From a virus, in IMG/VR virus record IMGVR_UViG_3300042524_000182, positions 1-37,811 of that record: a stretch of 37,811 nucleotides of DNA; one strand, 5' to 3'. The position numbers were made by a program, and so were the translations under genes. The notes beneath the pieces were generated by a model. The model worked only from the letters and a program-made list of their open reading frames with translations, did not search any database and was not told where the DNA came from. Shown here in pieces: positions 403 to 37,811 of this stretch (position 1 is its first letter; the number at the start of each line of letters is the position of its first letter).

Positions 403-644
403 TTGCGTGATAAGTTAAGTTTGCGCCGGGTGGCCTCGGCATGCGCCTCGGAGAGCTTGATGTCTTTCCAGGTGCCGAGGTGGCTTGATGCCTCCAGGGT
501 GGCGATGCGCTCGATCAACTCGGGCGTGGTTAGTGCGGTTGGGTGCTTAAATGCGGGGATGCTCACGGTTTGGAATTGTTCGGGGTTGGCGATGTGATCA
601 AGCACAAGCTCGGCATCGCGGAAGAATTGGTAGGAGTCATTCAC
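399..644 (-). CDS. Hypothetical protein, GTG start
   Basis: An 81-residue soluble protein starting MNDSYQFFRDAELVLDH. No family recognised; residues 36-70 are predicted helical and charged. The chosen start is GTG at 644, overlapping the upstream gene's stop by eight bases, because no ATG in frame gives a sensible product. The stop overlaps the ATG of the 33-aa gene. It belongs to the leftward operon. Confidence 0.55.
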   Translation of the reverse strand: MNDSYQFFRDAELVLDHIANPEQFQTVSIPAFKHPTALTTPELIERIATLEASSHLGTWKDIKLSEAHAEATRRKLNLSRK

Positions 645-900
645 GGACGGATTTTAGGAAGTCGAGAACCTCGCTGGTTTTGTATCTGATCAGGGTTTTC
701 GGGATGAGGACGTAGCGTTTGATCGGTAGCCTCTCCAGCGTGTTGGATCGTATATCTAGCATACCGCAAACCTCCATTTGACTCATCCACTCGCCACGCT
801 CGCGGGTTCGTTTCCTAGCCTCCTCAGCGGCAGCGAATGCCGCAGCAGCTTTAGCAGCCGCGAAAATCTCCGCCTCTTGGGCGGGGCTGAAGATCGTCAT
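637..900 (-). CDS. Excisionase-like helix-turn-helix protein
   Basis: This is an 87-residue protein. Residues 1-36 form an Ala/Glu-rich helix. Residues 39-85 (MSQMEVCGMLDIRSNTLERL through IRYKTSEVLDFLKS) match the pattern of MerR/excisionase-type winged HTH domains: a helix with the 'evc..L.i....' core, a wing with 'IRYK.SEV', and a final 'FL.S'. Such proteins bend DNA for prophage excision or act as regulators. It starts with an ATG overlapping the upstream TGA at 897-900. It is a candidate excisionase but lies 2.4 kb from the integrase gene, so a regulator role is equally possible. Confidence 0.6.
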   Translation of the reverse strand: MTIFSPAQEAEIFAAAKAAAAFAAAEEARKRTRERGEWMSQMEVCGMLDIRSNTLERLPIKRYVLIPKTLIRYKTSEVLDFLKSVRE

Positions 901-1991: not shown

Positions 1992-2602
1992 TTGCTAGAT
2001 GCCCACGCCAAAAACGCTGAGCGGTCTTTTTTACTGGTGTTTTTCCACGTGGATTTTAACAGCCAAAGTTTATCGCTTTCCTTTTCGGCAGCGTCGCCTT
2101 TTGCTTTTGCTTCGTCGCTTAGCGTTGGGTTGGGAATGGCGAATTTCACCCCATCCACGACCACGGTTTCGGGTTCCTCCTTCATTTCTTCCTTTGGCAT
2201 AACTTCCAGCACAGCCGCTTCCACGTGGCGGGCGGCAACGGGCTTACCTTCTTCCTTGGCGATCTCTTGCGCCTTCTCCCATGCGGCGGGCTGTTGCTCT
2301 GCGGGGAGCTTTGCTAGAGGGCGGGCTTGCGCTTCGTTGGTAGGTATCGTTTGTGCGCAATTGCGCACATTTTCAACAACCTTGGCTGATTCTATTAGTT
2401 GATAGACGTGCCGCTTTTCCCATCCAAGCTTTTCGCGGCAATAGTCCTCGAAAGTCTTGTGGGTTGAACGGTAGAGCTTACCGACCTGAATTCTTCCAAA
2501 GGCAGCTCCGACATCCACAAATGTCTGCTTGCCCTTTTCGATTACAGCTTCCAGTGCCGCCAACTCTTCCGACTCGGCGGGGGTGATGAGTTCGGCGCTC
2601 AC
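1988..2602 (-). CDS. Phage DNA-binding protein, ParB-like/HTH type
   Basis: A 204-residue protein. Residues 30-75 (VDVGAAFGRIQVGKLY, FEDYCREKLGWEKRHVYQLI) resemble the HTH region of phage and plasmid regulators related to ParB and DUF3102-type proteins. The middle is Ala/Glu-rich and the C-terminus (TWKNTSKKDRSAFLAW) is basic. It lies directly before the ParB-like gene, suggesting that they work together. The start is GTG at 2602, overlapping the upstream stop (GTGA). Confidence 0.55.
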   Translation of the reverse strand: MSAELITPAESEELAALEAVIEKGKQTFVDVGAAFGRIQVGKLYRSTHKTFEDYCREKLGWEKRHVYQLIESAKVVENVRNCAQTIPTNEAQARPLAKLPAEQQPAAWEKAQEIAKEEGKPVAARHVEAAVLEVMPKEEMKEEPETVVVDGVKFAIPNPTLSDEAKAKGDAAEKESDKLWLLKSTWKNTSKKDRSAFLAWASSK

Positions 2603-2694
2603 TTCCCCACCTCCCGAGCTTCGATCTTGTCGAGGATGGCGGCGAGACGCTCGGCGGTGGCCATGGCCTCGGCGATCATTTCGTCGAGGGTCAT
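2599..2694 (-). CDS. Very small helical protein, 31 aa
   Basis: The frame MTLDEMIAEAMATAERLAAI continues to REVGK and is one amphipathic helix. Its ATG overlaps the stop of the RHH gene and its TGA overlaps the GTG of the next gene, so it sits exactly in the coupled chain. Function unknown. Confidence 0.45.
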   Translation of the reverse strand: MTLDEMIAEAMATAERLAAILDKIEAREVGK

Positions 2695-2885
2695 TGTGAT
2701 ACCCCTCCCATTTTGGTTCTCAGTGCATCCTCAACCCACGACGAGAAACTAACCTTCTCGGCGGCGGCTTGTTTCTTGGCGATTTTGAGGAGCCGGATGT
2801 CGATTGAAAGTGACGGCTTGGTTTTGGTTTCCCCGGTCGGCGGGCGTCCCGGCTTGCGGGTGATTGGTTTTGGTTTTGCGCTCAT
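2691..2885 (-). CDS. Ribbon-helix-helix regulator 1 (first gene of leftward operon)
   Basis: A 64-residue protein. Residues 1-22 are basic with a GRPPTG motif like an AT-hook. Residues 24-58 (KPSLSIDIRLLKIAKKQAA, SFSSWVEDALRTKM) are a ribbon-helix-helix fold: a beta strand, helix A, then the S-x-x-x-W/V-x-x-A-L helix B. RHH proteins bind operators as dimers through the strand. It is the first gene of the leftward early operon and faces a second RHH gene across a repeat-rich 118-bp gap, so it probably controls both promoters. The start at 2885 is chosen over an upstream one because it begins the domain and leaves the operator region free. Confidence 0.75.
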   Translation of the reverse strand: MSAKPKPITRKPGRPPTGETKTKPSLSIDIRLLKIAKKQAAAEKVSFSSWVEDALRTKMGGVSQ

Positions 2886-3003
2886 TGCTGAGGGCAAGAA
2901 ATACCCAAAAAATACCCACGTAAACAAAAATCGTCTTTTGGGTTAAAAATGGGCAGGAAAATTATTTGAAACCGTTGGGTTTTTGGGTTATCAACACGGT
3001 GTT
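2886..3003. promoter_or_regulatory. Divergent promoter/operator region between two RHH genes
   Basis: TTTTGGGTTA occurs at 2936-2945 and again at 2981-2990. Its near reverse complement ATACCCAAAA is at 2901-2910, with a further ATACCC at 2912-2917 (11 bp, one helical turn, from the first). TTGGGT is also at 2975-2980. A rightward promoter fits TTGAAA (2966-2971), 17 bp, TATCAA (2989-2994), so two operator copies lie between -35 and -10. A leftward promoter may use TTGTTT or TTTACG with TATTTC near 2898-2903, overlapping the ATACCC copies. This layout suits an autoregulated two-repressor switch. Confidence 0.6.
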
Positions 3004-3264
3004 ATGAAAGAAGAACAACCAAAGAAACCCGGCGGACGCCCAAAAATGAACGAGGCCGAGAAGCGCAGAAAGCCAGATATCTCACTGTCCAAGGAGGTGA
3101 TTGCGGCGGGGAAGGATCACGCAAAAGCATGCGGGATGTCGTTCTCAGCATTCGCGGAATCAGCCATACGCGAAAAACTGGCAGCTTGCCCAGTCCAGCC
3201 GCTGCGCCCCCTGAGGCAGTCCCGCACAGTCAACCCGAACCGAGGAAATACCGACCGCGCCTGA
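3004..3264 (+). CDS. Ribbon-helix-helix regulator 2 (divergent)
   Basis: An 86-residue protein with a basic GGRPKM-containing N-terminus (8-14), an RHH core at about 27-62 (KPDISLSKEVIAAGKDHAK, MSFSAFAESAIREKL), and a proline/arginine-rich tail. It resembles RHH1 in layout but the core is diverged. Its start at 3004 lies 38 bp from the -35 box, so its message would have only a few leader bases. It precedes the integrase in the same direction, a position typical of a lysogeny-side regulator. Confidence 0.7.
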   Translation: MKEEQPKKPGGRPKMNEAEKRRKPDISLSKEVIAAGKDHAKACGMSFSAFAESAIREKLAACPVQPLRPLRQSRTVNPNRGNTDRA

Positions 3265-3317
3265 TCATGCTTTGCCGTTCTACCCGGCAGATAACAAATT
3301 AACAGATAAAAATCCCG

Positions 3318-4439
3318 ATGACCGCCCAGCCCGTCAAATACCGCTCCGTCTCCATCACCGTTTACCCCATCACGCGGGCAGACGGCGGGACCTACTGGCA
3401 ATTTAAGCGGCGCAACGGGATCCGGGTCACGCGGGCGACTCTCCCGAAGATCAAAACCGAGGCGCTCAAAGAGGCGCAGACGCTCTACAAGGGCGGGCTG
3501 GAGATTGACGACCTAACCCCGGACCAGATCCGCGCCATCAAACGGATGTTGGAGGCCGATCCAGAGCTTCGCATGGTCGATGAGTTCATCCTCTGGCACT
3601 CCCGGCGAGCACCGAAGAAAAACCTGGGGGATGCGCTCGATGAGTTCCTGGCGGCGAAACTCTTAAATCAGGGGCGGTCGGCGCAAAACGTGAAAACGCT
3701 CAGGGCGAGACTGAAACCGCTGGATCCGCTGCGGGGTATGCTGCTCAGTAGCGTATCGGTGCAAGACCTCCCCGACCTCGTGGGCGAGCCACGGACGCGA
3801 AAAAACGTGCGGGCGGCGTGGATCACGTTTTTCCGTTGGTGCGCGGAAATGGAGTTTTTGCCTCACGGAGAAAAGACGGCACCGGAACGTCTCGGCAAAC
3901 CGATTGCCCGACGCAAGGTGCCGTCCACCTATACGCCTGCGGAGCTGGCAATCCTCCTGGGCGGTGCCAGTCCCAAATTTTTGCCATGGATCGCCTGCGG
4001 GGCATTTGCGGGGACCAGGACCGATGAGGTTTACCCGCTGCCAGGCGGCGAAAAATCCCCGCTCGATTGGTCAGATTTCGATTGGCCGGCGAAGATTATC
4101 AGGATCCGGCCCGAGACGGATAAAAACGGGCATGGTCGGATTGTGCCGATCCTTCCGGCGCTGCGGGCATGGCTCTACCCGGCGCGGAAGAAATCCGGCC
4201 CGCTGATCTCCTGCCTGCCGTCATCGGGTAATGAGCCGGAGACGAAGCGGCTGGGGACGCTCATCGGAGGGTGGAAGGCAAACGCCCTGCGGCACTCCTA
4301 CATCAGCTATCGAGCCGCCGAGGTGGGGCTGGCCCAGACGGCCATGGAAGCAGGCAACTCGGAAAGCGAAGCGCGGAAATCGTATAACGATTCCAAGTCC
4401 CCGGCGGAGGCCAAGGCTTGGTTCGGGGTAGTGCCCTAG
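3318..4439 (+). CDS. int: Tyrosine recombinase (phage integrase)
   Basis: A 373-residue protein with a SAM-like core-binding domain at about 101-180 and a catalytic domain at 203-373. Visible active-site residues are Arg234 (GTRTDEV), Lys269, Arg325 (NALRHSY) and the nucleophile Tyr356 (KSYND). The two classical histidines are Asn322 and Asn347 (EAGNS), a variant I associate with integrases of Verrucomicrobiota and relatives. The extreme C-terminus has the WFG motif of that group. It catalyses integration between attP and a host site, probably the tRNA-Ser-like sequence at 5891-5922. It follows RHH2 by 53 bp and ends in a hairpin shared with the convergent gene. Confidence 0.92.
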   Translation: MTAQPVKYRSVSITVYPITRADGGTYWQFKRRNGIRVTRATLPKIKTEALKEAQTLYKGGLEIDDLTPDQIRAIKRMLEADPELRMVDEFILWHSRRAPKKNLGDALDEFLAAKLLNQGRSAQNVKTLRARLKPLDPLRGMLLSSVSVQDLPDLVGEPRTRKNVRAAWITFFRWCAEMEFLPHGEKTAPERLGKPIARRKVPSTYTPAELAILLGGASPKFLPWIACGAFAGTRTDEVYPLPGGEKSPLDWSDFDWPAKIIRIRPETDKNGHGRIVPILPALRAWLYPARKKSGPLISCLPSSGNEPETKRLGTLIGGWKANALRHSYISYRAAEVGLAQTAMEAGNSESEARKSYNDSKSPAEAKAWFGVVP

Positions 4440-6043: not shown

Positions 6044-6234
6044 CCGCTCAACTTTTCCTCTTGGTGGTTTCGGAAAATCGGGTAGCGGTGGCGGCGTCAG
6101 GAGCAACCGATTGGAAACCGGCCTGGCATTTCATCGAAATGCAAAACCACCAAATATCCTCCTATTCTCTCCATCCGCCCGTTGTCATTTCCGGGGTTTC
6201 CACGGGTGGGGAGAGTCGGGGGATTTTTGATTCT

Positions 6235-8427
6235 ATGAACTACGATAAATTCATCCTCGCAAAAAACCGATCACACGTTGCCGCCGGATTCGACCCCCGC
6301 CCCATAACCGCCCCGCTTTTCGACTGGCAAGCTCACGTTGTCCAGTGGGCATGCCGCACGGGGAAAGCAGCTCTATTTGAGGACTGCGGACTAGGCAAGA
6401 CTCTCCAGCAGCTTGAATGGGCGCACCAGGTCGTGATGGAAACCGGAGAATCGGTTATTATCCTGACCCCGCTAGCCGTTGCCCATCAAACCGAAAATGA
6501 GGCGCGGAAATTCGGCATTGCGGCAAAAGTGGTTGCATCGCAAGCCGAATGCCAAGAAACGGGAATCTACATCACAAACTACGAAAAAATTGACCATTTC
6601 GATTGCTCGCAATTCGTCGGGGTAGTTCTCGACGAATCTTCCATTTTGAAAAATTTCACCGGAAAGCTTCGCCGGAAACTCACTGATTCATTCGCGCAGA
6701 CTCCCTATCGGCTTTGCTGCACTGCCACCCCATCACCCAACGACTACACGGAGTTCGGGCAGCATGCTGATTTTCTCGGGGTATGCACTCCCGCGCAGAT
6801 GCTCGCCACGTTCTTTATTAACGACACTTTCAACACTGGCGACTGGCGTTTGAAAAAACACGCTGAATCGCATTTCTGGGCATGGGTCGCATCATGGGCG
6901 GCATGCGTTTCTAAGCCTTCTGACATCGGCTATGATGATGCGGGATACATACTGCCGGAACTATCGCTCCACAGCATCACAGTTGATGTGGACGAGGTGA
7001 CAGGCGCGGGCGACGAAGAGCTTTTCCGCCATGCCACGATGAGCGCAACCACGATGCATAAGGAAATGCGGATGACCTCGCCAGCACGGGTAGCTAAGGT
7101 CGCGGAACTGGTTAACGGATCGGACGAGCAGTGGATTGTATGGTGCAATACTAACGATGAATCTAGCCAGCTCAAGGCGGCGATTCCCGACGCTGTGGAG
7201 GTTCGTGGTAGTGACACGGGCAAGAAAAAGGAGGATTCCGCGGATGGTTTCGTTGACGGCTCGATTCGCGTTCTTATCAGTAAGGCCGGGATTTTTGGCT
7301 ACGGCTTGAATTTTCAGAACTGCCGAAACGTCGCTTTCGTCGGTCTGTCTTATTCTTTCGAGGACTTTTACCAGTCGCTCCGCAGGTCATACCGATTCGG
7401 CCAAACCCGCGAGGTCAACGCCTACATCGTCCAGGCGTCCACCGAGGGCGCAATCGTCCGATCCATCAACCGCAAGATTGCTCAGCATAAAGAGATGCAA
7501 GATCGCATGAAACTGGCAGCAGCCGCATTTGTCGAAAACGAAAACAAACAACACCGCATGAAAACAGATATCAACACAGCCACCGGCGACGGATGGGAAA
7601 TCCACCACGGAGATTGCGTCAGGGTCGCAAAACAGATCGAGGACGAATCAATTGACTTCTCGATTTTCTCCCCGCCATTTGCGGACTTATTCACTTATTC
7701 CGACGACTTACAGGACATGGGCAACTGCTCGGACATGGAAGAGTTCAAAGCGCATTTTGAAATCCTCATTGAAGAAATGGCGCGTATTATGAAACCTGGT
7801 CGAGAGGTTGCCGTGCATTGCGTGGATTTGCTAAGCACAAAGTGGAAGCACGGGAAAATCGAGTTCCAAGATTTCAGCGGGGAGATAATCCGTATGTTTT
7901 GGAAGCACGGATTCCTGTTTCATTCGCGGATTTGTATCTGGAAATCACCAGTGACGGAAATGCAGCGGACGAAGGCGCACGGGTTGCTCTACAAGACGCT
8001 CAAGGCTGACTCATGCGACTCCCGCGTCGGTTGCGCGGATTACCTGATCGTTTTCCGTAAACCCGGCGAGAATCCAAACCCGGTTACTAAAGACCCTGAC
8101 AAATACCCGGTGGACTGGTGGCAAGAGGTCGCATCCCCTGTATGGATGACGGTGGACCAGGGTAACGTCCTGAATAAAAATGGAGCGCGTGACCATGCCG
8201 ACGAGCGCCACATTTGCCCTCTCCAGTTGGACGTGATCGAGCGGGCGGTTGAATTGTGGACGAACGAAGGGGAGTTGGTTTACTCGCCGTTCACGGGCAT
8301 TGGCAGCGAAGGAGTGACTGCGCTGGAACTGAACCGGCGATTTGTCGGGAGCGAGTTGAAAGAGTCGTATTTCAACCAGTCCGTGCAGAATCTCAAAAAC
8401 GCGAAAAGTCAGCTCTGCCTGTTTTGA
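6235..8427 (+). CDS. SNF2-type helicase fused to N4/N6 DNA methyltransferase
   Basis: A 730-residue fusion. Residues 25-410 are a superfamily 2 helicase: motif I GLGKT (52-56), motif II DESS (133-136), motif III CTATPSPND (162-170) and a C-terminal lobe with YQSLRRSYRFGQ (motif VI). Residues about 442-730 are an amino-methyltransferase: SPPF (479-482, catalytic motif IV) precedes the AdoMet-binding FTGIGS (686-691), the circularly permuted beta-type order. The start at 6235 (MNYDKFILAKNRSH) is preferred because the upstream extension is Ser/Pro-rich non-domain sequence. Probable roles are DNA modification against host restriction or remodelling of replicating DNA. The Walker A is degenerate in its first half (EDCGLGKT), as in SNF2-like phage helicases. 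Confidence 0.85.
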   Translation: MNYDKFILAKNRSHVAAGFDPRPITAPLFDWQAHVVQWACRTGKAALFEDCGLGKTLQQLEWAHQVVMETGESVIILTPLAVAHQTENEARKFGIAAKVVASQAECQETGIYITNYEKIDHFDCSQFVGVVLDESSILKNFTGKLRRKLTDSFAQTPYRLCCTATPSPNDYTEFGQHADFLGVCTPAQMLATFFINDTFNTGDWRLKKHAESHFWAWVASWAACVSKPSDIGYDDAGYILPELSLHSITVDVDEVTGAGDEELFRHATMSATTMHKEMRMTSPARVAKVAELVNGSDEQWIVWCNTNDESSQLKAAIPDAVEVRGSDTGKKKEDSADGFVDGSIRVLISKAGIFGYGLNFQNCRNVAFVGLSYSFEDFYQSLRRSYRFGQTREVNAYIVQASTEGAIVRSINRKIAQHKEMQDRMKLAAAAFVENENKQHRMKTDINTATGDGWEIHHGDCVRVAKQIEDESIDFSIFSPPFADLFTYSDDLQDMGNCSDMEEFKAHFEILIEEMARIMKPGREVAVHCVDLLSTKWKHGKIEFQDFSGEIIRMFWKHGFLFHSRICIWKSPVTEMQRTKAHGLLYKTLKADSCDSRVGCADYLIVFRKPGENPNPVTKDPDKYPVDWWQEVASPVWMTVDQGNVLNKNGARDHADERHICPLQLDVIERAVELWTNEGELVYSPFTGIGSEGVTALELNRRFVGSELKESYFNQSVQNLKNAKSQLCLF

Positions 8428-9153: not shown

Positions 9154-9822
9154 ATGAACCTAGAAACATTTTTTTCTGATATCGACGCACTCATCGACGC
9201 TGCGCCTGACGACGTGGAGGCCACACAAGAGCAAATTGACGCCATCCGACTGGAACAGGACCAGAAACGGCTTCGGATTGCTCACAGACGCGCCCTAGGC
9301 CCAAGGACGGGCTGGCCCGAGAAATACCTTGATGCCGTTCGGGTCAACCCAACCGGCGATGAATGGATCAATGCTTTTGGGCTAGCCATGGACCGAATCA
9401 GGAAAAAGGGGATCGTGGTGCTCTACGGCAAACGAGGATCGGGCAAGACCCGGATGGCGGCGGAAATCGCGGTCGCCGTTGGGGATTCCCGCTACCGAAC
9501 CGCGATGAGGTTTTTCCTGGAGGTTCGAGCGACATTCCGAAAAGGGTCTGAGCGGTCGGAAATGGAGGTTATCGACGAATTGTCACACGCCCCGGTGCTG
9601 ATCCTTGACGAGATCCAGGAGCGCGGAGAAACGGCTTTTGAGGATCGGCTGCTGACTCATGTGATCGACGCCCGATACGCCGCGATGCGACCAACGATCC
9701 TGATTGCCAATCTCGACAAATCCCAACTGGCTGAGTCCCTCGGGAAATCCATCGTGGATCGCGCCCGCGAAAACGGGAAATCCATTGAGTTTAACTGGCC
9801 ATCCTACCGCGTCCAGCCATGA
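9154..9822 (+). CDS. DnaC/IstB-like AAA+ helicase loader
   Basis: A 222-residue ATPase with Walker A GKRGSGKT at 92-99, Walker B VLILDE at 148-153, sensor 1 (TILIAN) near 186 and an arginine-finger region (IVDRARENGKSIEF). It probably loads the host replicative helicase at the phage origin together with the O-like protein just upstream. The start MNLETFFSD follows the initiator stop by four bases, with leader GAAACC. The N-terminal 40 residues are acidic and probably contact the partner. Confidence 0.85.
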   Translation: MNLETFFSDIDALIDAAPDDVEATQEQIDAIRLEQDQKRLRIAHRRALGPRTGWPEKYLDAVRVNPTGDEWINAFGLAMDRIRKKGIVVLYGKRGSGKTRMAAEIAVAVGDSRYRTAMRFFLEVRATFRKGSERSEMEVIDELSHAPVLILDEIQERGETAFEDRLLTHVIDARYAAMRPTILIANLDKSQLAESLGKSIVDRARENGKSIEFNWPSYRVQP

Positions 9823-10052
9823 GCCGCCGAATCAACCGCCCGCCAATCCGCGACACGAAGCCCAAAGGTCGGCAAATCGACATCGGCCTTGCTGTGGCCG
9901 GCGCGACTCTTCCGCCGGGTCAATGCCGGGACCTGTCGGAGATCGCGGCTTATTGCGGATGCTCGCGGCAACTCATCCACACGATACAAAATCGAGCGGT
10001 TGCGAAAATCCGCGATGCACTAACACCAATTTCCAACCAAAAAACAAAATGA
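9819..10052 (+). CDS. Sigma-70 region-4-like HTH regulator
   Basis: A 77-residue protein. Residues 37-67 (CRDLSEIAAYCGCSRQLIHT, IQNRAVAKIRDAL) closely follow the sigma-70 region 4.2 pattern (EIA..LGVSRERIRQIE.RAL.KLR), the part that binds the -35 box. The N-terminus is basic and there is no region 2, so it cannot be a complete sigma factor. It may act on phage promoters, possibly the TTTGAC late boxes described here. Overlaps the upstream stop (ATGA) and the next start. Confidence 0.7.
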   Translation: MSRRINRPPIRDTKPKGRQIDIGLAVAGATLPPGQCRDLSEIAAYCGCSRQLIHTIQNRAVAKIRDALTPISNQKTK

Positions 10053-33084: not shown

Positions 33085-33287
33085 AATGGATGGCCTCCCT
33101 CGATTAGAAATTCACACCAAAACGCAATGATCGGCGGGGGTGAAATCATCACGACACGCTCGCCACGCGGAGCAATCCGGCGCAAGCATGTTTCGCATCC
33201 TTCGCGCCAGCCAAGCATGCCATCACCGTCGCCAATTCCATCGTGAGTTCCGTCACACCGGGCGGTATCGTTCGGTAGGGTTATCAT
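33081..33287 (-). CDS. Small Cys-containing protein, 68 aa
   Basis: Contains CDGTHDGIGDGDGM then WREGCETCLRRI, a pattern of conserved Cys residues seen in small phage proteins beside recombination genes. May bind zinc. Overlaps exonuclease and resolvase by four bases. Confidence 0.55.
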   Translation of the reverse strand: MITLPNDTARCDGTHDGIGDGDGMLGWREGCETCLRRIAPRGERVVMISPPPIIAFWCEFLIEGGHPL

Positions 33288-34096
33288 GCTGCACCTCCAA
33301 ACTCAGCTTGCCACATCGCGGCGAGCTTTGCCTTCATCTTGGACTTCTCCATCACAAGCACTTTCAAGCCAGACTCCAGCCTCTCGGTTAGCTCGCTCCG
33401 CTGGACTTCCAGCAACAGCGAGGGTTGACCAGGGCAGAAGCTCAGGAAATCCCAGCGATCCAGCCCGGTGACGGCCATGCATGCGTGGACTTGTAGCTCG
33501 TGGATGCCGGGTAGAACGCCGTCATCCAACCAGGCAAGGTGCGTCTCGGGCATCGGACATTTAATCTCGATGCCGTGGGCGTATTGATTCCATTCCGTCC
33601 TCTCGATCTCATCGACCAGAATCAAGCCATCCGGCGAACATCCAAAGCCCCCAAAATCGCTTTCGATAAACCCAACCTCGGTAACAGCAAACCCTGTGCG
33701 CTGCTGATAGTATTCCCTCGCGTGAGGCTCCAATGCGTTACCACGTTGGACCGGGATGTTGTATTCAAACGCCTTCTCAGCCTTCGCGTCCATCTCGGTT
33801 TGCCAAGCGTCTTTCGGGTTGTTTTGCACGATCTTCTTGATGATGGCAGTTCGCGCACCTTCGGACAGTTCGGCGTATTGGTCGAGGTTCGGCAGTAACG
33901 CCAACAGTTCATCGCGGCGGGTTAGCCCCTTGCGCGGGATGCCGTAGCCGTCGAGTTCCAGTTTGAGTTGATCGACGCTGAGCGTCACCTTCACCGGTTC
34001 CAGCGCAAACGGGCCAAGCTCTGAAGCGGTAAAGCATCGACGGCGCAGGTCTAGCCATTCGGGTGTTCCTTGGATAATTTCGGGGTAGAGTTTCAT
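33284..34096 (-). CDS. YqaJ/lambda-type exonuclease with SAP-like insertion
   Basis: A 270-residue exonuclease. GNALEPHAREYYQ (Glu123), FGCSPDGLI (Asp156) and GIEIKCP (Glu177, Lys179) are the catalytic residues of the PD-(D/E)xK YqaJ family. Residues 38-69 (TLSVDQLKLELDGYGIPRKG to ELLALL) resemble a SAP DNA-binding motif placed between the N-terminal helix and the catalytic part. It makes 3' ssDNA tails for RecT. The start at 34096 overlaps the upstream stop. Confidence 0.85.
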   Translation of the reverse strand: MKLYPEIIQGTPEWLDLRRRCFTASELGPFALEPVKVTLSVDQLKLELDGYGIPRKGLTRRDELLALLPNLDQYAELSEGARTAIIKKIVQNNPKDAWQTEMDAKAEKAFEYNIPVQRGNALEPHAREYYQQRTGFAVTEVGFIESDFGGFGCSPDGLILVDEIERTEWNQYAHGIEIKCPMPETHLAWLDDGVLPGIHELQVHACMAVTGLDRWDFLSFCPGQPSLLLEVQRSELTERLESGLKVLVMEKSKMKAKLAAMWQAEFGGAA

Positions 34097-34329
34097 TCTC
34101 GTAATGTTGGGATTAGTGTTTCGATAGCCTCTTTGATCTTCGGCCATTCTTCGGGGGTGATCTGGATTTGTTGTTCTTTGACATCAAGGCTTCCGCTTTG
34201 CTGGGTGATTTGCAGGTATTCACCAGCCGCCTCGTTTTCGATTTCGATATGGGTCACAGCCTCGGAGAATATCGGCTCGTCTCCACGACCCACGCTCAGG
34301 CGTGTGATTCGGATTTCGTAAGGTTTCAT
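34093..34329 (-). CDS. Hypothetical protein, 78 aa
   Basis: Starts MKPYEIRITRLSVGRGDEPI; short beta-rich acidic protein ending in a helix. It lies between recombination genes; unrecognised. ATGA overlaps. Confidence 0.55.
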   Translation of the reverse strand: MKPYEIRITRLSVGRGDEPIFSEAVTHIEIENEAAGEYLQITQQSGSLDVKEQQIQITPEEWPKIKEAIETLIPTLRE

Positions 34330-34595: not shown

Positions 34596-35603
34596 TTAGG
34601 CTTTGAAATCTCCGGTCAGGATCGCCAGGCGGTTATCATGCGCCATCCGCAGCACATCAATCGGCGCTTCGTGCAACGGCACATCGCCGGCCACGACCCC
34701 CGCTTTTTTCGCCCGCCCGCCGAAGGTCGCGAACGTCGCTTCTTGCTCATGGCAGGTGGCTTTGATATCCGCGATCAACTGCGCCCGCTCCGTGGCCTCT
34801 GACACCTCCAACGGTGATTCAGGGACAATTTCAAGCGATTGCTCCGGGGCAAGCTCTGGCAAGGATTCAGGCTCGGTGTAGGGGTTGATCCGGGGGGTAT
34901 CGTTGACGACTCGCCCGGTGGTGACGCGAGGACCATCATCCAGCGAATCCCCATCCTTTTCAAAGGCATCCCGAATCTCGGGCGAGAGTGGTAGCCATTT
35001 GGAAGCGCGGCGGAACACCGTCTTTTTCGCCATCTCGTCAAAGTCGGTGATCCATGGGCCGGATCCGCCGGCGCGGGAACGCTTACGGATTGCGTCAACA
35101 TCGTCGCGGGTCATAACCTCGGACTTTTCCGACCCGTCCTTGAAGGTGATCAGCACATAATAAGCGTAGCTCTCGCCCCGTGGTTTTTTATAGTCAACCC
35201 GGTGGCAGACGATGCTCCCCCGGTTGACCTCGAAGTCATCATTTTCGCAAACCTTGTCTGCGTGGATCGACGCCACAAGGCCGGACCGCATGACGAGTTC
35301 CGCAATGCCCTTGTAGTCGAGAATCAACGTGCATTCCTTTCCGTAGGGAATCAGGTGGGCGCGGCGTCCATCCGGCTCGATACCAAGCGCGGACAGGTCG
35401 AGCAGGCAGCGCATGAATGACTCTGGAGTGCAGTCCTGGAGCTTCGGTGTGCGAGTCAGGGCAGTCAAACAGACACGGGTGAATCGGTCGGAGGTTAGAT
35501 GTTTTGGCAGCGCCAGCGCAAACTGCGCCCGCATTGCATCGGAGTTGATTAGGGCTTTCAGCCCCTGCGGTTTCTTGTCGGTGATTTGTGTGTTCGGATT
35601 CAT
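34596..35603 (-). CDS. RecT-family single-strand annealing protein
   Basis: A 335-residue protein. The region 20-210 (FTRVCLTALTRTPKLQDCTP, MRCLLDLSALGIEPDGRRAH, KGIAELVMRSG) is typical RecT: lengths, order and the EPDGRRAHLIPYGK stretch. The C-terminus is acidic, Pro/Glu-rich. It anneals complementary ssDNA left by the exonuclease encoded downstream. Leader CTCCAAAAAT. Confidence 0.9.
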   Translation of the reverse strand: MNPNTQITDKKPQGLKALINSDAMRAQFALALPKHLTSDRFTRVCLTALTRTPKLQDCTPESFMRCLLDLSALGIEPDGRRAHLIPYGKECTLILDYKGIAELVMRSGLVASIHADKVCENDDFEVNRGSIVCHRVDYKKPRGESYAYYVLITFKDGSEKSEVMTRDDVDAIRKRSRAGGSGPWITDFDEMAKKTVFRRASKWLPLSPEIRDAFEKDGDSLDDGPRVTTGRVVNDTPRINPYTEPESLPELAPEQSLEIVPESPLEVSEATERAQLIADIKATCHEQEATFATFGGRAKKAGVVAGDVPLHEAPIDVLRMAHDNRLAILTGDFKA

Positions 35604-36608: not shown

Positions 36609-37592
36609 TCACGGGCGGGGTTTCAATTCCGTCACTCGACGGGGTGAAAGTGTTATTGTTTCGAGATACGCGAGGATGAACTGCGCGGCGACTTGCGGGA
36701 CGATTGCATTGCCGTAGCCCCGCAGGAGTCCCACTCTGCCGGGAACCCCATAAGCCAGCGGGAATGTGCCGGATTCAACGCGCCTCGCTTTTCCGTCGGT
36801 GCATGGGAGGATGTCGAAGGAATCCCAAGCGTGACCTCGCAGTTCAACGGTAACGAGTTCCTGCGGAATTGTGACGGACCCGCGTTGTTTGCTGCGTCCT
36901 GACATGTCGGCGTTGCCCATCCCGCGAAGCTCGCCGCGTGGTTCAGCGTGATATTCGGCGTGGTGAAATTTTCCCCTGGATAACGAACCGAGTCCGTCAC
37001 AGTTGGAGTTGGCCAGCCCGCTGATTGGACCACCGTCTGGAGATTGTCCCCGCCCGTGCCGTGCTCGCCCGCCCCCGTGCTGTTGGATGTTGTTGGAGTC
37101 GGCCACCCAGAAGAGCCGCTGCCGAATGTGCGGTGCGCCCGCGCTCGCAGCGCACAGATCGGCGGCCCCGACGTCATATCCCAGTCCTTCCAAGTCAGTG
37201 CGTATTCCGGCGAGCCATTCGCGCCCAGCCTTGCTTGCAACCTGCTCGCCAAACGTGACTGTAGATTCCCCGAAAGTGATGATATCGCGGAACACGGGCC
37301 AGAGGTGCCGTTCGTCAGCTTCACCTTTACCTTGCCCAGCGACCGAGAACGGCTGACAGGGGCAGCTTCCAGTCCGAACGGGGCGATCTTCTGGCCATCC
37401 TGCCAATTTGAGGGCGAGTGACCATCCGCCGATTCCAGCGAAGAAATGCTGTTGTGTGTATTCGGTAAGTTCATGCGGTTTAACTTCGGTGATGCTGCGT
37501 TCGTCCACGATACCGTTGGGGATATGCCCTCCCCCGATCAACTCACGGAGCCATGCGGCGGCTTTGGGATCGTGTTCGTTGTAATAGTTCAT
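36609..37592 (-). CDS. C5 cytosine DNA methyltransferase
   Basis: A 327-residue Dcm-type enzyme. FAGIGG (51-56, AdoMet binding), Cys79 in GSCPCQPFSVAG (catalytic), FGEQV (about 114-118, the ENV equivalent), APHIRQRLFWVA (target-proximal) and GYGNAIVPQVAAQF near the C-terminus (motif X). It probably modifies phage DNA against host restriction. Its start is the ATG at 37592, overlapping the stop of the small membrane gene. The middle region is unusual because the +1 frame is also open. Confidence 0.9.
   Translation of the reverse strand: MNYYNEHDPKAAAWLRELIGGGHIPNGIVDERSITEVKPHELTEYTQQHFFAGIGGWSLALKLAGWPEDRPVRTGSCPCQPFSVAGQGKGEADERHLWPVFRDIITFGESTVTFGEQVASKAGREWLAGIRTDLEGLGYDVGAADLCAASAGAPHIRQRLFWVADSNNIQQHGGGRARHGRGQSPDGGPISGLANSNCDGLGSLSRGKFHHAEYHAEPRGELRGMGNADMSGRSKQRGSVTIPQELVTVELRGHAWDSFDILPCTDGKARRVESGTFPLAYGVPGRVGLLRGYGNAIVPQVAAQFILAYLETITLSPRRVTELKPRP
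36653..37474 (-). CDS. Overlapping frame inside the methyltransferase gene
   Basis: An ATG at 37474 opens 273 codons in the +1 frame of the methyltransferase. The translation has GLEAAPVSRSRSLGK, then ICALRARAHRTFG, three G-W-(P/A)-T-P-T units and LNPAHSRWLMGFPAEW. I recall proteins of this kind annotated in other phages, but alternate-frame echoes of conserved methyltransferase motifs could explain that. It may be a dual-coding gene or chance. Confidence 0.25.
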   Translation of the reverse strand: MNLPNTHNSISSLESADGHSPSNWQDGQKIAPFGLEAAPVSRSRSLGKVKVKLTNGTSGPCSAISSLSGNLQSRLASRLQARLGANGSPEYALTWKDWDMTSGPPICALRARAHRTFGSGSSGWPTPTTSNSTGAGEHGTGGDNLQTVVQSAGWPTPTVTDSVRYPGENFTTPNITLNHAASFAGWATPTCQDAANNAGPSQFRRNSLPLNCEVTLGIPSTSSHAPTEKRGALNPAHSRWLMGFPAEWDSCGATAMQSSRKSPRSSSSRISKQ

Positions 37593-37811
37593 AGCCTTGG
37601 ACGAATCCCGCTAAACTCCTCATACGCCCGCTCGTCTTGCGCCCGGCAAGCGTAGCTCATTGCGCCACGGGCGAACGACACGGCGGCAATCAGGCCGGCC
37701 ATGGCGACGATGAACAGCAAGGCACCGAGAACGGGCAGGCTCATAAACGCGCTGATCGACCACACCCCGACTGCTAGGCTGGCGAAAAATGATGCGGTTG
37801 CCCATAGACCG
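37549..37811. repeat. Terminal direct repeat, right copy (partner 1-263)
   Basis: Same order as 1-263 with no gaps; identical over the first 107 bases, then about 20 differences across the last 156. It shows the genome is circular or terminally redundant, and the divergence suggests population variation or duplication. Confidence 0.85.
37589..37811 (-). CDS. Partial small membrane protein (right-edge copy)
   Basis: The frame matches the C-terminal part of the 41-304 gene (GLWATASFFASLAVGVWSIS onward) with at least seven amino-acid changes, mostly conservative: M-to-L, I-to-V, and FI-to-MS near ACRAQ. Hydrophobic character is kept. It runs off the window. Confidence 0.65.
   Translation of the reverse strand, partial: GLWATASFFASLAVGVWSISAFMSLPVLGALLFIVAMAGLIAAVSFARGAMSYACRAQDERAYEEFSGIRPRL

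Follow-up and report, generated by a model that had tools for sequence, protein, structure and literature searches.

Primary immunity switches, as presented in textbooks, are built on helix-turn-helix (HTH) repressors, and pairs of ribbon-helix-helix (RHH) proteins have been described in phage P22, in its accessory immI region, where the genes mnt and arc are divergently transcribed. This region is a secondary one, located within the late operon and controlling the antirepressor gene ant, and P22 has in addition a primary immunity that depends on the HTH protein C2. Mnt and Arc are small, related RHH repressors that control the expression of one another and have a bearing on the choice between lysis and lysogeny (PMC11016777, PMC7549136). 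RHH proteins with a suspected role in prophage regulation have also been described in SPbeta (YosL) and in Pf prophages (Arc-family proteins) (PMC10516654, PMC7549136). All of these are encoded by single genes standing beside other master repressors, in contrast to the divergent pair of RHH genes considered here.

The window analysed in this work (the whole stretch of DNA under study) is an IMG/VR virus record of 37,811 nt. Its ends share 263 bp (1-263 and 37549-37811) at 93% identity, the first 107 of which are exact, and a near-identical contig, L005, continues from the right end of the window into its left end, which makes the genome in effect complete and circularly permuted. The imperfection of the terminal repeat suggests assembly from a mixed population. 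Searches with the integrase returned 21 viral contigs and 3 bacterial contigs, and since the latter are labelled Verrucomicrobia, Prosthecobacter and Akkermansiaceae, the host probably belongs to the Verrucomicrobiota; the phage is probably a temperate, siphovirus-like one. The genes relevant to the locus are as follows:

637..900, minus strand: small gene in the leftward operon, putatively DNA-binding and a candidate excisionase (weak phrog_668 match)
2597..2695, minus strand: small 33-aa gene overlapping the stop of RHH-L; left border of the cassette exchanged in relatives, conserved up to 2698 in the relative L006
2691..2885, minus strand: RHH-L, 64 aa, heading the leftward early operon; basic N-terminal PGRP arm, then ribbon-helix-helix
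2886..3003, no strand: putative intergenic operator/promoter region of 118 bp; G+C 38% versus 56% for the window
3004..3264, plus strand: RHH-R, 86 aa, gene preceding the integrase, in the slot held by HTH or CI-like repressors in relatives
3318..4439, plus strand: integrase (phrog_1 integrase, E 4e-18)
33284..34147, minus strand: YqaJ-type exonuclease, in the same leftward run as RecT
34596..35603, minus strand: RecT, part of this leftward run, which crosses the contig ends

The arrangement agrees with that claimed in the initial annotation, namely two divergent RHH genes around 118 bp, the leftward one heading a long early operon and the rightward one preceding an integrase. Genes, strands and the gap (2886-3003) are all as described. 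Together with the 33-aa gene that it overlaps, RHH-L is the first member of a tight minus-strand run that reaches position 1 and goes on from 37811 down to ~31072, encoding past the contig ends a C5 methyltransferase, RecT, the YqaJ exonuclease and a RuvC-like resolvase. RHH-R starts at the ATG at 3004 and ends 53 bp upstream of the integrase gene. Two other observations concern methyltransferases of this genome. Two long overlapping minus-strand frames, 36609-37592 and 36653-37474, both look protein-like and may represent dual coding, one specifying the C5 cytosine methyltransferase (327 aa) and the other a 273-aa product with WATPTCQDA and RWLMGFPAEWD motifs; and a single open frame at 6178-8427 joins SNF2/helicase domains to an N6/N4 DNA methyltransferase.

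That the two proteins are RHH rather than Cro/CI HTH proteins, as had also been proposed, is supported by structure prediction. AlphaFold models, built from shallow alignments and with no formal strand assigned in the monomers, consist of an extended segment followed by two helices (residues 30-42 and 47-60 in RHH-L, 30-43 and 47-61 in RHH-R), with core pLDDT above 90. In Foldseek searches with both models, MazE, CopG and Arc chains rank first, with probabilities of 0.9-0.99 and weak E-values (> 0.1), as expected for only ~40 residues. Pfam scans gave no match above the cut-off to a curated RHH/Arc family model, the best matches below it being DUF6364 and CopG_antitoxin. Membership of the RHH (MetJ/Arc) superfamily is thus supported by the predicted models at the level of fold only. 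Sequence comparison shows RHH-L and RHH-R to be homologues (33% identity across 52 aligned residues; shuffle z 10.5), and in each of them the N-terminal arm is basic and contains PGRP or GGRP, which appears to resemble an AT-hook core. Searches of known phages with either protein, or with the DNA of the switch region, returned no match.

The presence of MazE antitoxins among the best fold matches, and weak Pfam/PHROGs hits on CopG and HicB-like antitoxins, would suit a different reading, in which each protein is the antitoxin, or an autoregulated partner, in a toxin-antitoxin module, the two modules standing back to back by chance. However, the downstream neighbours are the 33-aa gene and the integrase, with no toxin match, and PADLOC gave no match either. 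The exchange with HTH/RHH cassettes beside the integrase, described below, would also be unexpected for such a module. As neither RHH gene adjoins a toxin gene, this highly improbable reading was dropped.

Within the intergenic region, the following elements were located:

2892..2906, no strand: GGGCAAGAAATACCC, an inverted but imperfect repeat; read on the minus strand, it is one base off GGGTATTTCTTACCC of the relative L029, whose 7-bp arms are perfect
2901..2910, minus strand: repeat ATACCCAAAA, with half-site GGGTA on the minus strand
2912..2917, minus strand: second ATACCC half-site
2936..2945, plus strand: repeat TTTTGGGTTA, copy 1, exact
2966..2994, plus strand: promoter-like site TTGAAA-17-TATCAA (-35 TTGAAA at 2966-2971, -10 TATCAA at 2989-2994; 9/12 matches)
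2975..2981, plus strand: TTGGGTT variant copy, within the promoter spacer
2981..2990, plus strand: repeat TTTTGGGTTA, copy 2, exact

The hexamer TTGGGT occurs four times in the 118 bp (P = 0.006) and the 8-mer ACCCAAAA three times (P = 0.002), both against dinucleotide shuffles in which any best motif on both strands was counted; elsewhere in the window, no stretch of that length contains more than one TTGGGT. The repeat pattern had been described previously as two copies of a repeat, its reverse form, a second ATACCC one helical turn away, and two copies between -35 and -10 of the rightward promoter, and most of this description stands. The only two occurrences of TTTTGGGTTA anywhere in the window are those at 2936 and 2981, and the second ATACCC lies 11 bp further on from the first. 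The reverse form is present as ATACCCAAAA, but differs at one base from the exact reverse complement of TTTTGGGTTA. Similarly, the 17-bp spacer does hold two TTGGGT, but only one exact TTTTGGGTTA, which runs into the -10; the remaining exact copy is 5' of the -35. The promoter-like site itself is a weak match, missed by a strict promoter scan, and its start point would fall just 5' of the RHH-R ATG, so the RHH-R message would be nearly leaderless. No leftward promoter was recognised in the region, which counts against a primary switch.

Since RHH-R adjoins the integrase and the repeats cluster beside it, one of the two proteins might instead be an accessory factor of integration or excision, and the repeats arm-type or recombination sites rather than transcription operators. 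We consider this very unlikely, as the repeats sit between two divergent starts, the RHH pair of the relative L013 is ~1.4 kb away from the integrase, and the small DNA-binding gene at 637-900 is a better excisionase candidate; tblastn found homologues of that gene in L006, L012, L027, L029 and L036.

The layout resembles that of the CI/Cro region (immC) of phage lambda, as in both a divergent pair of DNA-binding proteins lies over common repeats, with one gene heading the early operon and the other on the integrase side. It differs in that RHH replaces HTH on both sides, an S24 domain is missing, the half-site geometry is another, and the integrase is directly downstream of the CI equivalent. 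In comparison with the divergent operators and promoters of lambda, the window phage has repeats above chance and only one weak promoter-like site.

Comparative evidence for a switch comes from what relatives carry in the same place. The contigs L006 and L007, whose integrase is 84% identical to that of the window phage, follow the window as far as 2698 and rejoin it at the integrase ATG (3318), whereas 2699-3317 is replaced. In L006 the flanks are 88-89% identical, and identity within the cassette is 64% (59% with shuffled sequence). The replacement is a divergent pair in which one gene encodes an HTH_3 protein and the other a small RHH-like protein distinct from those of the window phage; the palindromes CTTTCCAAAAAAGGAAAG and ACTTTCTAAAAATAGAAAGT lie in between. 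Cassettes of this HTH/RHH class were also found in L008 and L012. They share with the window phage the slot, the divergent pair and the repeats or palindromes between the genes, and in L006 also the flanks; they differ in that the right-hand protein is of Cro/CI-type HTH, the left-hand one is RHH-like of another subfamily, and the palindromes are others.

In L010 and L011, the slot of RHH-R is occupied by an S24 CI-like repressor (Pfam S24 1e-8; phrog_4 1e-11), and in L009 and L036 by longer proteins with an HTH-like start. In the L036 protein, the tail is similar to the left-hand protein of the same pair (z 9.4). In the right-hand repressors of L036 (5060-5365) and L009 (2079-2489) the HTH-like start is followed by an RHH-like part, and in L010 (4901-5758) an S24 peptidase follows HTH-like and RHH-like parts, which suggests possible HTH-RHH-S24 repressors. 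In L010 and L011, the stretch from repressor to integrase also contains ~12 copies of CAGCCTCT in tandem, ~200 bp before the integrase gene.

Mapped on the integrase tree, the RHH/RHH label requires 6 changes, of which well-supported branches force at least 5; switch types are scattered and cluster no more than shuffled labels. Because the label is unclustered, we conclude from these sequence comparisons that whole switch cassettes are exchanged, in the manner of immunity regions. The RHH/RHH module seems to be exchangeable, with the usual helix-turn-helix repressor in its place in a close relative.

Divergent RHH/RHH pairs were found in seven viral lineages, namely the window phage, L013/14, L027, L029/32, L030/31/37, L034/35 and L076, and in one chromosome-borne prophage, in genome G091, where RecT lies leftward and a 31% identical integrase is near by. 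Among 388 Verrucomicrobiota genomes, a two-row RHH profile found nothing, and a six-row profile yielded G091 as the one convincing prophage; the other divergent pairs looked at seemed chromosomal. Such pairs outside obvious prophages in some chromosomes count against the primary-switch reading. Two chromosomal divergent pairs, at ~8680-9015 of L069 and ~7254-7700 of L070, stand beside a 6-pyruvoyl-tetrahydropterin synthase-like gene with no phage genes near by. The left-hand proteins form one family, and the right-hand ones are more divergent. Within most pairs the left and right proteins are similar to one another (shuffle z of 8.2 in L013, 7.3 in L029, 4.1 in L030 and 3.1 in L034); those of L027 are not (z 1.6).

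Operator-like motifs accompany several of these pairs. Between the two RHH genes of L013, the near-palindrome GTTTATTAAAC is present in three exact copies (P < 0.001), the intergenic regions of the window phage and L029 align within the left cluster (GGG-A...TACCCA...ACCCAC), and TGCGCA and GTGTGTA are common to L030, L034 and L076. In L027, L034 and L036 the repeats between the genes do not exceed chance expectation, and in some other relatives they are only marginal, which also weighs against the primary-switch reading. The strand residues S-S/T-D go with GGGTA (window phage, L029) and N-x-N with TGCGCA and GTGTGTA (L030, L034, L076). Such a pattern would fit a correspondence of strand residues with operator type; shared descent may also explain it, because the intergenic regions concerned are alignable as well. 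The motif GGGTATTTCTTRCCC was rejected as a switch signature: it matches viral contigs at large and, among the matches listed, an RHH protein of this family was present only in the L029 contig.

Another way to read the locus is as a secondary pair similar to P22 immI, with mutual control and an accessory function (e.g., the timing of integrase and recombination), primary immunity residing in another gene. Mnt and Arc provide the precedent, being small RHH repressors of each other in a secondary immunity region (PMC11016777, PMC8022706), and the window phage likewise appears to have two related RHH genes around one control region. Some RHH/RHH relatives also encode an HTH_3 protein elsewhere; the strongest caution comes from L013, L030 and L034, in which the RHH pair might be secondary, like mnt/arc, because an XRE-type HTH protein is carried elsewhere in those phages. 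In the window phage, by contrast, a search of the whole phage for an HTH_3 or S24 repressor gave no match, while control genomes do match, and Pfam scans of its other plausible small genes gave only a weak piece of sigma-70 region 4. The protein concerned (9819-10052) is a possible late-gene regulator. Moreover, the pair has no Pfam Arc match and lies at the junction of integrase and early operon, the slot of HTH/CI-like repressors in relatives, with the integrase and the 33-aa gene as its neighbours and no antirepressor gene beside it. A secondary role is, in our judgement, unlikely here.

We therefore regard it as likely that 2691-3264 is the primary lysogeny switch of this phage, operating as follows. 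RHH-L and RHH-R would have arisen from an old gene duplication and would act as dimers of dimers on GGGTW half-sites within the 118 bp, both proteins binding the same repeats. RHH-R, transcribed toward the integrase, would be the CI equivalent by position, and in the lysogen it would repress the leftward promoter and keep RHH-L and the recombination operon off. RHH-L, the first early gene, would be the Cro equivalent: by repressing the rightward promoter, with two half-sites in its spacer, it would turn RHH-R off and commit the phage to lysis. We infer DNA binding, the assignment of proteins to repeats, the direction of control, promoter use, the protein that maintains lysogeny and the loss of function on induction. 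The absence of an S24-type domain from the RHH proteins speaks against a primary switch. The initial proposal of a lysogeny switch of two RHH proteins nevertheless gains support, at the sequence level, from the HTH/RHH and S24 cassettes in the same slot, the recurrence of RHH/RHH pairs, and the lack of HTH_3 and S24 matches in the phage.

If so, this switch would be a novel form of the divergent double-repressor type, most like Mnt/Arc in its logic. As far as our incomplete coverage of the open-access literature extends, no description of an RHH/RHH primary switch was found. More tentatively, and with real doubt on our part, phages of Verrucomicrobiota could possess a class of exchangeable primary switches in which a duplicated RHH repressor and counter-repressor compete for the same half-sites, possibly as mixed dimers, without an HTH repressor. 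If the proposed reading is true, the architecture of the lysogeny switch would be conserved while its DNA-binding fold is replaceable, with RHH/RHH and HTH/RHH cassettes trading at one site, and this would make it easier to annotate lysogeny genes where a phage yields no hit to CI-like proteins.
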